From Candidatus Fermentithermobacillaceae bacterium (lineage in GTDB: Bacteria; Bacillota; Sulfobacillia; Fermentithermobacillales; Fermentithermobacillaceae): 33,801 bases of DNA. The stretch is from contig DUSI01000057.1 of NCBI GenBank assembly GCA_012842685.1, positions 1 to 33,801 on the forward strand, written 5' to 3'. The notes under the pieces are model-generated. The model did no database searches. It was not told the DNA's origin and saw only the letters and a program-made list of their open reading frames with translations. The stretch's first letter is position 1, and each line of letters opens with the position of its first letter. This document shows, piece after piece, positions 14,008-33,801 of the stretch. The position numbers and the translations under genes were made by a program.

Positions 14008-14083
14008 TGGTGGACCGGATGCGAATCGAACGCACGACCTCCTGAATGCCATTCAGGTGCTCTCCCAACTGAGCTACCGGCCC
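14008..14083 (-). tRNA. tRNA-Ala (anticodon GGC)
   Basis: The 76-base minus-strand sequence folds as a complete cloverleaf: acceptor GGGCCGG/CCGGTCC (one G-U pair), anticodon stem CCTGA/TCAGG with loop ATGGCAT giving anticodon GGC, T-arm with GTTCGATTC, discriminator A and encoded CCA. It reads alanine GCC/GCT codons. A consensus promoter lies upstream. Confidence 0.97.
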
Positions 14084-14167: not shown

Positions 14168-14998
14168 TTAGCCTAGCCAACCTCTGGCAGCGTCTTTGGC
14201 TATTATGAGGCACCCGAAAAGCTGCTTGTACGCGTCCAGGTAGTTGTCTGCCTTGACCGCTACCACCTTGGGCCCGCGCCGCTCCACCGTGGGGAACAGG
14301 CAGCACATATGGGCCATGCTGGTGAGTTTCATGGTGATCTCGAACTCGACCGGCGTCTCCACTTTGTGAGGCTTGAAATCGGGAAGCCGCTTGAGAGCCC
14401 TAATGGCCGCCTCTTTGATGAGCTTCTGTACCCTCTTGGGCGGAAGGAGCCTGGCGGCGTACCGGTCTATGGCCCTCTTGGTCACGACGGTTTCAACGTC
14501 CCCCAAGAACCTCTTGGCTTCCTCGCAGAGGATGTGGTCCCCCGCCACGAGCACGACGGGCACGCCGAACGCCCCGGCAATCCCGGCGTTTATGGCCGTC
14601 TCCCCCACAACCACGCCGTTTCTCCGGATCTCGGTCACAGCGGTGCCCATGATCGTGTGGTTCATCACCGCGTCCTCGTTGCCCTCGTGGGCGTGGTAGC
14701 CAAGGAAAAACACAGCGTCGAAGGTTTCATCGATGCCTTCCATCTGGAGGAGGTGCTTGTTATTCCCGCTTATGAGCTCGGCGCGATCGTCTAGTTCCTC
14801 GATCAAGATGTTAGCCATGTTTCCGTGGGCATCATTTACCAGAACCTCGGTAGCCCCTGCCTCGAAAGCCCCTTCTATCGCGGCGTTGACTTCCTGGGTA
14901 AGGAGCTTTACCATCCGGTTGTACCCGCCGTCTGTCATGTGAGACGCTCCGGCGATACCGGTCCCGCCTTCCATATCCACGGATATGTAGACTTTCAC
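14168..14998 (-). CDS. dppA: M55-family D-aminopeptidase (DppA-like)
   Basis: The 276-residue protein belongs to the M55 zinc D-aminopeptidases, which release N-terminal D-amino acids from peptides such as D-Ala-D-Ala fragments of cell wall. The metal ligands are all present: D8 and E10 in SVDMEG, H58 in NDAHG, H102 in GYHAHEG, and E133 in GETAINAG. The length matches the family. GTG 14998 is placed by GGAGGGAT a few bases upstream. It is monocistronic here; no peptide ABC transporter genes accompany it as in the B. subtilis dpp operon, so recycling of wall peptides during growth or sporulation is inferred. The end lies just before the tRNA-Ala promoter. Confidence 0.93.
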   Translation of the reverse strand: MKVYISVDMEGGTGIAGASHMTDGGYNRMVKLLTQEVNAAIEGAFEAGATEVLVNDAHGNMANILIEELDDRAELISGNNKHLLQMEGIDETFDAVFFLGYHAHEGNEDAVMNHTIMGTAVTEIRRNGVVVGETAINAGIAGAFGVPVVLVAGDHILCEEAKRFLGDVETVVTKRAIDRYAARLLPPKRVQKLIKEAAIRALKRLPDFKPHKVETPVEFEITMKLTSMAHMCCLFPTVERRGPKVVAVKADNYLDAYKQLFGCLIIAKDAARGWLG

Positions 14999-30656: not shown

Positions 30657-30683
30657 GAAGCCGGCGGACAACCCGCCGGCTTC
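30657..30683. terminator. Hairpin terminator between convergent units
   Basis: A perfect 11-bp stem GAAGCCGGCGG (30657-30667) / CCGCCGGCTTC (30673-30683) with loop ACAAC separates the NUDIX gene from the end of the membrane-protein operon. It is followed by TCCTCTCC on the plus strand, and no long T run on either strand. Confidence 0.7.
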
Positions 30684-30706: not shown

Positions 30707-31312
30707 TTACAGGCTTATACCTAGCCAATCGCTCAGGAGGAACGAGAGCCTGCCGAGGAAGAGGGATATACGTCCCGAAACCGTATTTCCGAAGGCCGCA
30801 CCGAAGTTGATCATAAGGATCCAGCGGCCGACCTTACTAATCTGCTGGAAGGTCTTTGAGTTCCCGCCTACGGTCAGGAAGAAGTACATCATGGACAGGA
30901 CGAACATGAGGAAGAACAGGATGTTCTCAAACTGACCCAAGTCCCTGACCGAGTCGGCGATCTGAACAGCGTACTGTCTCGGGAACAAGGAGAAGTAGTA
31001 ACCCAGGGCCCATCCTACGCTGATGGAGACGGGGTATCTGGTAATCCACGCGTACCTCGCCGGGAGGAACCTCGCGTAGTAGAGGACTCCGAAGGCGAAG
31101 AAGATCCAGAACCACCACCAGCCCTTAGTCTTCACATGGGTCTCGATGTACGGGATGAACGTATTGTGCCAGCCCGTAACAAGCGAGTGCGCAACCGCCA
31201 GAGCGATCATCGTGTGCTCTGCGATCCTGAAGAAGATGTTCTCCTTGTAGAGGTAGCTGTAGACCGCCAGCGTGCAGAGAGCGGCGACCCATGTCTGCGG
31301 ATTTGTAGACAT
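30707..31312 (-). CDS. Polytopic membrane protein, last gene of a four-gene membrane cluster
   Basis: I do not recognise the family. The 201-residue protein has about five or six hydrophobic helices (near 8-22, 32-48, 64-82, 93-112, 127-147, 158-176) and few charged loops. Notable features are the aromatic WWWFWIFFAFGVLYYARFLP and an amphipathic C-terminus. There is no signal peptide or transporter motif. ATG 31312 has GAGGTGAG at good distance. It lies 33 bases after the 283-residue anchored protein, and the hairpin behind it probably ends the operon. Membrane component of an uncharacterised complex is my inference. Confidence 0.8.
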   Translation of the reverse strand: MSTNPQTWVAALCTLAVYSYLYKENIFFRIAEHTMIALAVAHSLVTGWHNTFIPYIETHVKTKGWWWFWIFFAFGVLYYARFLPARYAWITRYPVSISVGWALGYYFSLFPRQYAVQIADSVRDLGQFENILFFLMFVLSMMYFFLTVGGNSKTFQQISKVGRWILMINFGAAFGNTVSGRISLFLGRLSFLLSDWLGISL

Positions 31313-31345
31313 CTACTCTCACCTCACTTTCCTCTTCAGGTCACA

Positions 31346-32197
31346 TCAGGCGCGCTTCCGCGTGTTGCGCAGCTTGAGCCTGTATCCGATATTGCCAAGG
31401 ACTACCAAGATTATGATGATCAGGTGGCCCATAGACTGAGCGTCCATGAGCTTGACACCGAGACCGGGACGTTCGATGAGCTTCTCGTACTCCGCGGCGC
31501 CCCTAAGACCGGGAATAATTCCCTTCACCTGTCCGGAACGGAGCAGGTTGCTGGTGCCAGCCACCTGAACCGCCACGTCACCCACGTACAGGTTGTGGTC
31601 GGGGAAGTACTGGGTGAAGGTGGGGATACCGGGGCTACCGGCCGAGAAGCAGATGATCCCCTTGACCGTCTGAGGAGTCCATTGCCTCAGGTTCTGCAGG
31701 AGCGGCAGCTCGCTGAAGTGATTGCCTTCAACGTCGACATTGCCGCAAGCGGTCCAGAAGTCGTCCTGCATGGACCTCCAGGTAGGACCGCCTCCGGCTT
31801 TGTAGCCGGGCATTACCCAGTCTATGCCGTACTCAGCAGAGATGCCCTGGGCTTCGAGCTCCTGAGACAGACTCTTGAGAGCGTTGTAGGCAAGCTGTGA
31901 ACCGGACTCCCACTGGGCAAGACCCACTACCTTGACGCCCCTCATCATGCAGTGGGTGAACCACGCCTTGAGCTGGGGTTCGAGCTCGGACGAGGAGCCG
32001 CCTCCATAAGCGGCATCGAAGATGACGATGTCGCCCGGATTCAGGCTCTCGATCCAGTCGTACACGGGCCTCGTGAGCTGCTGGTTGATGCTCAGGGGAA
32101 GTCCGATGGGTTTGAGCACCGGGAATATCAAGAACACCGCCATGATCAGGTATATGATCTGCGGGTTAATCTGGTCGAACCTTTCCAGGAACTTCAA
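31346..32197 (-). CDS. Membrane-anchored alpha/beta protein of the four-gene cluster
   Basis: I do not recognise the family. The 283-residue protein has a membrane helix near each end (about 13-33 and 254-272) and a soluble alpha/beta domain between them. Repeated strand-helix elements (DIVIFDAAYGGGSSSELEP, VKVVGLAQWESGSQLAYNAL, EYGIDWVMPGYKAGGG, KGIICFSAGSPG) look like a Rossmann or flavodoxin-like layout. Gly- and Ser-rich loops could bind a ligand. The side of the membrane is uncertain. TTG 32197 is placed by AAGGAGGG upstream. The gaps to its neighbours are 39 and 33 bases, so it is part of one operon. Confidence 0.8.
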   Translation of the reverse strand: MKFLERFDQINPQIIYLIMAVFLIFPVLKPIGLPLSINQQLTRPVYDWIESLNPGDIVIFDAAYGGGSSSELEPQLKAWFTHCMMRGVKVVGLAQWESGSQLAYNALKSLSQELEAQGISAEYGIDWVMPGYKAGGGPTWRSMQDDFWTACGNVDVEGNHFSELPLLQNLRQWTPQTVKGIICFSAGSPGIPTFTQYFPDHNLYVGDVAVQVAGTSNLLRSGQVKGIIPGLRGAAEYEKLIERPGLGVKLMDAQSMGHLIIIILVVLGNIGYRLKLRNTRKRA

Positions 32198-32236
32198 CGC
32201 TAATTCCCTCCTTTCTACTACTTAGTGAGGGTCAGG

Positions 32237-32890
32237 TTACTCTTGACCAAGGTGACGTCTCTCGATACCGAGCAGTATACGGCTCTGGGTTGCCATGATC
32301 CCCAGGAAGATACCCAAGTTAATGGCCCTGTTTCCGGCAGCGTTCGGGACGCGCAGGATCCAGTCCTTAATCCCTGTGAATCCGCCCAGCGGCCCGTTGG
32401 GGCCCCATATGAGCTCACCTATCGGAACGTTGCCCATCATCAGGAAGAATGCCGCCGCCAGCATGACAGCCGCGTCGGAGTTCCTGACTCGGAAGGCCCT
32501 GTAAGCAGCCGAAGCAATATAGAACGCGAGGAGCGAGAACATCGTCGAGTCTATCGGCACGTATATGCCCTGGTAACTCCAGGCATACGCCGGATGCGTA
32601 TGGTGGGTGAAAAGACCCAACAGGCTCTGGAAGACGAGAACCACCAGGAGGTACACGCTGAGCTGCCAGTGGGGTCTCCTCCTCCGGATGTTGTTCCCGT
32701 GGATCCGGAACAGGTTGAGAACCCCGAGGAACAGGGCGCCGCAGGACATGAAGGTCATCGCCCACGACATCGCGTTCAGGAGCTTGTCACCGGAAACGAG
32801 CGTGTAGTTGTAGGGACCGTCGAATGCCTCGAGGGCGAACCTGAAGGCCGCGAAGATCAAGCTTATGATAAACGGGACTTCTTTCCTCAC
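32237..32890 (-). CDS. Polytopic membrane protein of the four-gene cluster
   Basis: I do not recognise the family. The 217-residue protein has about six membrane helices (near 5-21, 38-58, 76-96, 108-126, 138-155, 187-205). A short basic loop RIHGNNIRRRRPHWQ separates the second and third, and FTHHTHPAYAW follows the third; the His residues could bind metal or heme, which is speculation. GTG 32890 has AAGGAGGTG at ideal spacing. It lies 40 bases after the DUF6754-like gene. A channel, anchor or energy-coupling role cannot be decided from sequence. Confidence 0.8.
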   Translation of the reverse strand: MRKEVPFIISLIFAAFRFALEAFDGPYNYTLVSGDKLLNAMSWAMTFMSCGALFLGVLNLFRIHGNNIRRRRPHWQLSVYLLVVLVFQSLLGLFTHHTHPAYAWSYQGIYVPIDSTMFSLLAFYIASAAYRAFRVRNSDAAVMLAAAFFLMMGNVPIGELIWGPNGPLGGFTGIKDWILRVPNAAGNRAINLGIFLGIMATQSRILLGIERRHLGQE

Positions 32891-32930
32891 CTACTGCACC
32901 TCCTTCCAACGTCAGGTTGGACGCAAAGCT

Positions 32931-33761
32931 CTAGAACTTGATGAACTTCGTGATGAAGTTGTTCTCCGGCGAGAGCCACTGGATGATCCCACCGATGAGG
33001 ATGATCACGTACAGGGAGATACGCACTATGTCCTGAGCAACAACAGTACCCGTGATGACCGGGTCTCTGGAGACATAGGCGGCGCCGGCGTAAAGCTCCT
33101 CACCGATCATGGTGTAGTCGCACGCGGCGACGAAGAACGGGATCTGGGCAGGCGAGCTTGCGGCGGCTACCTGGATGGCACCTACGAGGTTCCCTGCCTC
33201 GGCCAGGATCAGAGACTCAGCGTAGAAGTAACCGACCAGGAACTGGGCCGCAGGCTTCTCGCGCGCGATGAGACCCGCGACACCCATCGCCCAAGCGAAC
33301 TGGGAACCGGCGATAAACCTGATATCGTCCGGGTTGTATGCTTCGGGCTTGCCGGCTTCGAGGTAGGCCTGCTTGACGATCTCCTGGTTAACGACGTTGA
33401 CCAGGTAGTTGGCGTCGGTCGCGATGAACCTCGTGTCGTACTGGGCGCACTGCTTGGCGATGTAGGCGAGGAACGACCAGTACGCGAAGGTCGAGTCGCT
33501 ACCCAGAGCGGTGCTGTAGTCGGTCATATGGACCGGCCTACCCATCTCGGTGGCGCGGCCAATCGCTTCGTCAAACGCCTCGATGCCGGGGATCTTGCGG
33601 ATCTCGGGGATCTTCTCGCCCCTCCTGGCCCTGTTAATCATCACATAGACCAGGATGATCATGACGATGCTTATGAGCACCGAGAAAACGCAGTTATCCA
33701 CGGGGCGGAAGATGCCCAGCTTGGGTGGAGTGGCCTGCTGAAGAAGCAGGAATCTAAGCAC
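32931..33761 (-). CDS. DUF6754-like membrane protein, first visible gene of the cluster
   Basis: The 276-residue protein fits the DUF6754 group of uncharacterised proteins as I remember it. An N-terminal membrane helix (about 26-43, FSVLISIVMIILVYVMI) is followed by a short basic stretch NRARRGEKIPEIRKIPG, which places the next domain in the cytoplasm by the positive-inside rule. The soluble alpha/beta region (about 60-240) includes GRPVHMTDYSTALGSDSTFA, DTRFIATDAN and SQFAWAMGVAG, and a membrane helix closes the protein (about 247-264). GTG 33761 has AGGAGGTG upstream. Function unknown. Further genes of the operon may lie beyond the window edge. Confidence 0.82.
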   Translation of the reverse strand: MLRFLLLQQATPPKLGIFRPVDNCVFSVLISIVMIILVYVMINRARRGEKIPEIRKIPGIEAFDEAIGRATEMGRPVHMTDYSTALGSDSTFAYWSFLAYIAKQCAQYDTRFIATDANYLVNVVNQEIVKQAYLEAGKPEAYNPDDIRFIAGSQFAWAMGVAGLIAREKPAAQFLVGYFYAESLILAEAGNLVGAIQVAAASSPAQIPFFVAACDYTMIGEELYAGAAYVSRDPVITGTVVAQDIVRISLYVIILIGGIIQWLSPENNFITKFIKF

Positions 33762-33801
33762 GCTGTTTCACCTCCTAACAGTGACTTGGAGGCACGAAAA
33801 C

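Follow-up and report, generated by a model that had tools for sequence, protein, structure and literature searches.

A conserved four-gene DUF6754 membrane cassette and its association with MutL-X protein pairs in many bacterial phyla and an archaeon

Introduction

What do four closely packed membrane protein genes make together, and with which other proteins do they work? The question is raised by a contig of a Candidatus Fermentithermobacillaceae bacterium (Bacillota; assembly GCA_012842685.1, contig DUSI01000057.1, here C57), the whole of which, 33,801 nucleotides, is the window analysed. The genes, termed A, B, C and D, are encoded in that order on the minus strand from position 33761 to position 30707. 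A first-pass annotation, made from the letters of the window alone, had described them as a compact DUF6754-like membrane module and had proposed that their products form one stable complex. Here we report that A, B, C and D are a conserved cassette, that the four genes co-occur and are duplicated as units, and that they are near-strictly associated with a pair of cytosolic proteins, MutL and X.

DUF6754 by itself is already catalogued; the cassette and its link to MutL-X are rated as new as a system, and three of the four cassette proteins belong to no named family. A set of genes that is retained in lineages as far apart as Bacillota, anammox Planctomycetota, candidate phyla and an archaeon, that is multiplied up to about 23-fold, and that is tied to an actin-like ATPase must matter to the organisms that carry it. 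Whichever of the functions weighed below is correct, the cassette and its named partners offer a concrete system for experiments on many hard-to-culture lineages.

Results and Discussion

The first-pass annotation had staked its proposal on the four genes keeping company in other genomes, and a survey of co-occurrence bore this out. Among 101 related genomes, A was found in 45 and each of the other three genes in 46, in nearly the same genomes and in similar copy numbers, with 1-23 cassettes per genome (the maximum being 23 A genes in one of them). The window genome itself (1.89 Mb) holds A and C seven times each, i.e., seven cassettes; five of the six that lie outside the window are complete with the order A-B-C-D, and the sixth leaves the end of its contig after C. 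In the closest public relative, also a Candidatus Fermentithermobacillaceae (92% identity in A), the cassette sits between purine-synthesis genes and spoIVF-like genes.

A scan of public genomes yielded 80 loci, which were tested by six-frame profile search. All four genes stood side by side at 75 of these; the five exceptions comprise two loci that lack D only, near a contig end, and three with A alone. The loci span Bacillota, several Planctomycetota including anammox lineages, WOR-3/Stahlbacteria, Latescibacterota, Zixibacteria, Poribacteria, Riflebacteria, Cloacimonadota, Fermentibacteria, Coatesbacteria and others, as well as the archaeon Culexarchaeum. Because the genes are adjacent at 75 of 80 independent loci, the four-gene arrangement is not due to chance. 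Tandem cassettes were present at several loci (three each at L115 and L143), and the median gap inside cassettes was 17 base pairs (bp). At one locus (L075:2421-8461), two complete cassettes are convergent, D to D.

Over 106 complete cassettes, pairwise distances for the four genes were correlated with one another (r 0.56-0.70, against a permutation maximum of 0.15), and these correlations persisted, mostly with significance, inside single genomes with many paralogues; therefore, cassettes duplicate and diverge as wholes. Duplication as a unit is to be expected of a complex with subunits that must fit each other. Of the single stable complex that had been proposed, the obligate set thus stands, by co-occurrence, synteny and duplication as units, and the physical complex is what we infer from it.

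Which proteins, then, accompany the cassette? The first-pass annotation, confined to the window, had missed the seven paralogous cassettes of the genome and also a partner pair, MutL and X. MutL belongs to PF13941 (MutL/GlmL; E about 1e-122) and has an actin-like ATPase fold. Its companion X carries an RnfC_N/NQRA_N-like barrel-sandwich domain (2e-9 in the best copy) and a KOW-like stretch at its end, and a PDB sequence search with X returned weak H-protein and KOW matches only. Both MutL and X were present in 45 of the 45 relatives having A (Fisher P 2e-22 for the pairing of A and X, 6e-10 for that of A and MutL). Furthermore, in 28 additional genomes, picked because no MutL gene was seen adjoining ABCD or because A was present by itself, MutL was found in 27 and X in 26, and no genome was without both. 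In single-copy Bacillota genomes, two MutL-X pairs with small proteins between them come after ABCD. A block S-MutL-X-A-B-C-D, where S is a small protein and the order of the two halves varies, occurs in Planctomycetota, Latescibacterota, Fermentibacteria, Riflebacteria and others. MutL and X are a single polypeptide of 874-1067 residues at five loci from several candidate phyla (L240, L241, L242, L244 and L245). The fused protein at L240 also has an N-terminal helix-turn-helix-like stretch.

The pairs are fewer than the cassettes in the window genome, which has seven ABCD sets and four to five MutL-X pairs, of which one adjoins ABCD; one relative of the same family has 14 ABCD sets and a similar number of MutL genes. 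On contig C48 of the window genome, the MutL-X pair adjoining ABCD has a second MutL-X close by, and on C17 PH and S genes precede a third pair. Two more pairs, one of them divergent, are found on C34 (L158:5401-17367), and since these are interleaved with genes for LolD-like ABC (ATP-binding cassette) ATPases and FtsX-like permeases, the arrangement suggests that MutL-X also partners ABC exporters. MutL/GlmL is otherwise the accessory protein of B12 aminomutases such as the glutamate and ornithine mutases, and a separate PF13941 member in the window genome adjoins an operon of the D-ornithine 4,5-aminomutase type. In contrast to the MutL/GlmL of mutases, the copies partnering ABCD are longer (about 600-650 residues), are paired with X, and lie beside membrane genes instead of a mutase; no B12-dependent mutase was recognised by eye next to MutL at the ABCD-linked MutL loci. 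Downstream of the cassettes at L054 and L055, ABC genes are followed by a MutL-like gene. At L145 and L102, from unrelated lineages, D is followed by genes that by eye are oppD/oppF-like ABC ATPases and by one for a protein of 744-1146 residues.

Whether the cassette belongs to a known system was assessed with family profiles. Gene A (32931..33761, minus strand, start GTG, 276 residues) is a clear member of PF20539/DUF6754 (291.3 bits against a cut-off of 27, E 6.7e-87), so that the DUF6754 label given earlier was correct; the Pfam entry covers A alone, and describes neither B, C, D, MutL, X or S nor a function. Genes B, C and D had no above-threshold hit in Pfam or NCBIfam, a scan of 70 C homologues against Pfam gave no recurrent match, and scans of 22-23 homologues each of B and D against families gave isolated weak matches, none above cut-off. 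The open-access literature that was searched, subscription papers lying outside it, contained no paper on DUF6754 or PF13941 and none describing the cassette or its MutL-X link; family scans and literature thus agree with the earlier statement that none of the four proteins has an assigned function. That annotation would have given way to a match with a known transporter component, and by sequence none of A-D matched above cut-off a subunit of TRAP (tripartite ATP-independent periplasmic), TTT (tripartite tricarboxylate transport) or other transporter families. Profiles of ABC_tran and of Rnf and Nqr membrane subunits likewise found no match in A-D. A defence system was considered and rejected, as the PADLOC models of anti-phage defence were negative apart from one weak match (a 4TM effector for D, E 0.02). 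By the tests made, the cassette is not an ABC or ECF (energy-coupling factor), TRAP, TTT, Rnf or defence system.

Membrane topology was predicted from alignment-wide hydropathy and charge, and folds from AlphaFold2 models of A and C. Gene B (32237..32890, minus strand, start GTG, 217 residues) and gene D (30707..31312, minus strand, start ATG, 201 residues) are open reading frames whose alignments show six transmembrane (TM) helices each, and the N-terminus of B is predicted from charge to be inside. The alignment of A has one clear helix at the N-terminus and one at the C-terminus, and that of C (31346..32197, minus strand, start TTG, 283 residues) has one per end. Consistently, both models, with a pLDDT (predicted local distance difference test) of 89.7 for A and 95.8 for C, consist of a TM helix, a Rossmann-like alpha/beta domain and a second TM helix, in agreement with the two polytopic and two doubly anchored proteins originally described. 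For A, a positive cluster after the first helix would place the domain in the cytoplasm, giving a predicted layout of N-terminus outside, TM 25-43, cytoplasmic domain at about 60-232 and a TM near 248-266. For C, positive N- and C-termini would place the domain outside, with the N-terminus inside, TM 14-32, the domain at about 42-240, a C-terminal TM and a positively charged tail inside.

Most A proteins from other phyla have N-terminal additions of 110 to about 500 residues, which mostly begin with a hydrophobic segment and weakly resemble fibronectin-III (FN3), and one family reaches 1011 residues; Bacillota A proteins have no such extension. The extensions fit a DUF6754 domain in the cytoplasm and an N-terminus outside. 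The folds of A and C and a topology in which their domains appear to face opposite sides of the membrane, that of A the cytoplasm and that of C the outside, are thus supported by prediction. A reading of the anchored proteins as equivalent halves did not survive: their layout is common, but charges and N-terminal extensions put them on opposite membrane sides, and no homology between them is claimed, because profile comparison by hhalign gave P 0.068 and a probability <1% despite the same helix/strand order in the models. Homology of B and D was likewise without support in profile comparison. The Cloacimonadota A proteins (L131:401-3436 and L138:4561-7410) carry about 700 added N-terminal residues with FN3/Ig-like segments, unlike every Bacillota copy.

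What might such a cassette do? Our preferred answer, a tentative one to which we give somewhat less than even weight, is a transporter that is selective for its substrate, among small peptides, amides or amino acids, and for which MutL-X serves as a shared motor or gate. A, B, C and D would form one membrane complex, with some 12 TM helices of B and D as its membrane core, a Rossmann-like pocket offered by C outside the cell and another offered by A in the cytoplasm. The complex would act with a cytosolic pair, MutL with its ATPase fold of the actin/Hsp70 type and X with its barrel-sandwich domains, and usually with the small proteins S and PH. Together they would move a small amide-type solute across the membrane, be it a peptide, an amino acid or an N-acyl compound. 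Every one of the 1-23 cassettes of a genome would have its own substrate specificity, and a few MutL-X pairs might serve them all as motor or gate. Physical association, transport, the substrate class and ATP or energy coupling are all steps that we infer.

This reading is favoured because of the hydrolases found next to cassettes, the context of the single-copy and archaeal loci, and the physiology of the host: a family member with a closed genome has been described as fermenting peptides and amino acids (PMC10215811). Paralogous cassettes neighbour genes for a creatininase (17 and 31 bp), an M24 peptidase (17 bp) and an amidohydrolase (21 bp), as well as M20 and D-aminoacylase-like enzymes. 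In a Pfam tally, amidohydrolases, M20, M24 and S9 made up about 10 of 77 neighbours compared to 2 of 77 random genes (P 0.03), with the families chosen afterwards and the random genes drawn from one relative genome. Genes for Alr, a pyridoxal phosphate-dependent enzyme, C26, S58, asparaginase II and M55 consistently flank the single-copy locus, often together with M20, and in the archaeon an M55 D-aminopeptidase is encoded close to MutL-X.

Several observations weigh against transport. None of the cassette proteins could be matched to a known transporter family; the enrichment of hydrolases is weak and is used as support only, in organisms that are rich in such hydrolases anyway; a close same-strand neighbour was found for only 20 of 54 cassettes; and many cassettes adjoin housekeeping genes without a catabolic link. 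Moreover, MutL need not be the motor of ABCD, since MutL also occurs with B12 aminomutases and MutL-X beside ABC exporters.

The nearest functional analogy may be with group II ECF transporters, in which one energiser is shared by many substrate-specific membrane subunits; the systems would be alike in combining many membrane cassettes with few shared cytosolic ATPase units. Unlike group II ECF transporters, the present cassette comprises four membrane proteins and no ABC ATPase, the associated ATPase is of the actin/Hsp70 type, and there is no sequence match. X recalls RnfC and NqrA in its domain and in its tie to a membrane complex, but it ends in a KOW-like stretch, and the Rnf and Nqr subunits have no counterpart among A-D. 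If the transport reading is true, an actin/Hsp70-type ATPase would energise or gate transport, of which we know of no other case. The broader claim, that many bacterial phyla and some archaea possess a new class of membrane transporter with dozens of substrate-specific four-protein cassettes and a common MutL ATPase in place of an ABC ATPase or ion gradient, is doubtful.

The alternative that survives best, although unlikely, is a cell-envelope role as membrane enzyme or flippase, in which A or C would be catalytic, B and D would bind or flip a lipid-linked substrate, paralogues would serve different envelope components, and MutL-X would be a reactivating or assembly ATPase. Fold searches with the A domain were led by Sir2 (Z 12.1, root-mean-square deviation 3.5 over 143 residues), followed by GmhA (Z 10.2), MurG (9.8), RCK/TrkA (about 9.8), SIS, transhydrogenase and CODH epsilon, and several of these are NAD or nucleotide-sugar enzymes. 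Because SIS, RCK, transhydrogenase and CODH epsilon trail Sir2, the domain is called merely Rossmann/DHS-like; its likeness to Sir2/DHS-like NAD-binding and RCK domains would be one of fold and not of function, as A has no Pfam or PDB sequence match to them and the Sir2 family profile did not match it. For C, the best fold match was VIA Z 7.9 (short-chain dehydrogenases), a generic Rossmann type with no clear match; a viral library gave nothing, and PDB sequence searches found no relatives of A and chance-level matches only for C. Conserved polar residues (E182, Q197, D215 and E222 in A; E71, D126, Q223 and E238 in C) are placed for the most part at strand ends, within loops or close to them, as read from the secondary structure of both models, as in ligand or catalytic sites. 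This resemblance to active sites, the aminomutase partnership of MutL, and the Alr and D-aminopeptidases near the single-copy locus are all consistent with an enzyme or flippase; however, no glycosyltransferase or other catalytic family matched the cassette proteins, the nearest neighbours are catabolic hydrolases and not envelope synthesis genes, and up to 23 cassettes per genome would be unusual for an envelope enzyme.

Slightly less probable is a sensory, adhesion or envelope-spanning scaffold, in which C and the extracytoplasmic part of A (the FN3-like extension of other phyla) would receive a signal to which MutL-X responds inside. The long additions to A fit such a role, as do the many cassettes beside unrelated housekeeping genes, and actin-like ATPases work with membrane partners in the FtsA, PilM and MreB systems. 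Against this, the Bacillota proteins have no extension, no receiver, kinase, cyclase or chemoreceptor domain or recurrent regulator partner was found, and diversifying sets of exoplasmic and membrane subunits better fit the handling of substrates. Least likely of the alternatives is an ABCD secondary transporter or channel with MutL-X as an assembly or repair chaperone and no motor, which would suit the founding role of MutL/GlmL, the mutase-linked copy in the window genome, and a copy number of MutL-X well below that of ABCD, frequently without linkage, but which is at odds with an association over many phyla and an archaeon that is closer to strict than is usual for a dispensable chaperone.

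Minor features of the window

The earlier description of four same-strand genes separated by 33-40 bp was confirmed for all open reading frames, the gaps from A to D being 40, 39 and 33 bp. Its near-ideal ribosome binding sites were also recovered, as strong Shine-Dalgarno motifs are read ahead of all four starts alike, on the minus strand: AGGAGGTGA for A (33768..33776), AGGAGGTG for B (32897..32904), AAAGGAGG for C (32207..32214) and GAGGTGA for D (31319..31325). The suggestion that the complex is made in quantity found no support in the sequence. The contig ends 40 bp upstream of gene A, and a promoter scan returned a single consensus site, on the wrong strand and at a count no higher than expectation.

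A GC-rich inverted repeat at 30661-30682, lying where D and a Nudix-like gene converge, is possibly a bidirectional terminator. About 16 kb from the cassette, a gene that by eye is M55 D-aminopeptidase-like (14168-14998) adjoins a tRNA at 14011-14083.

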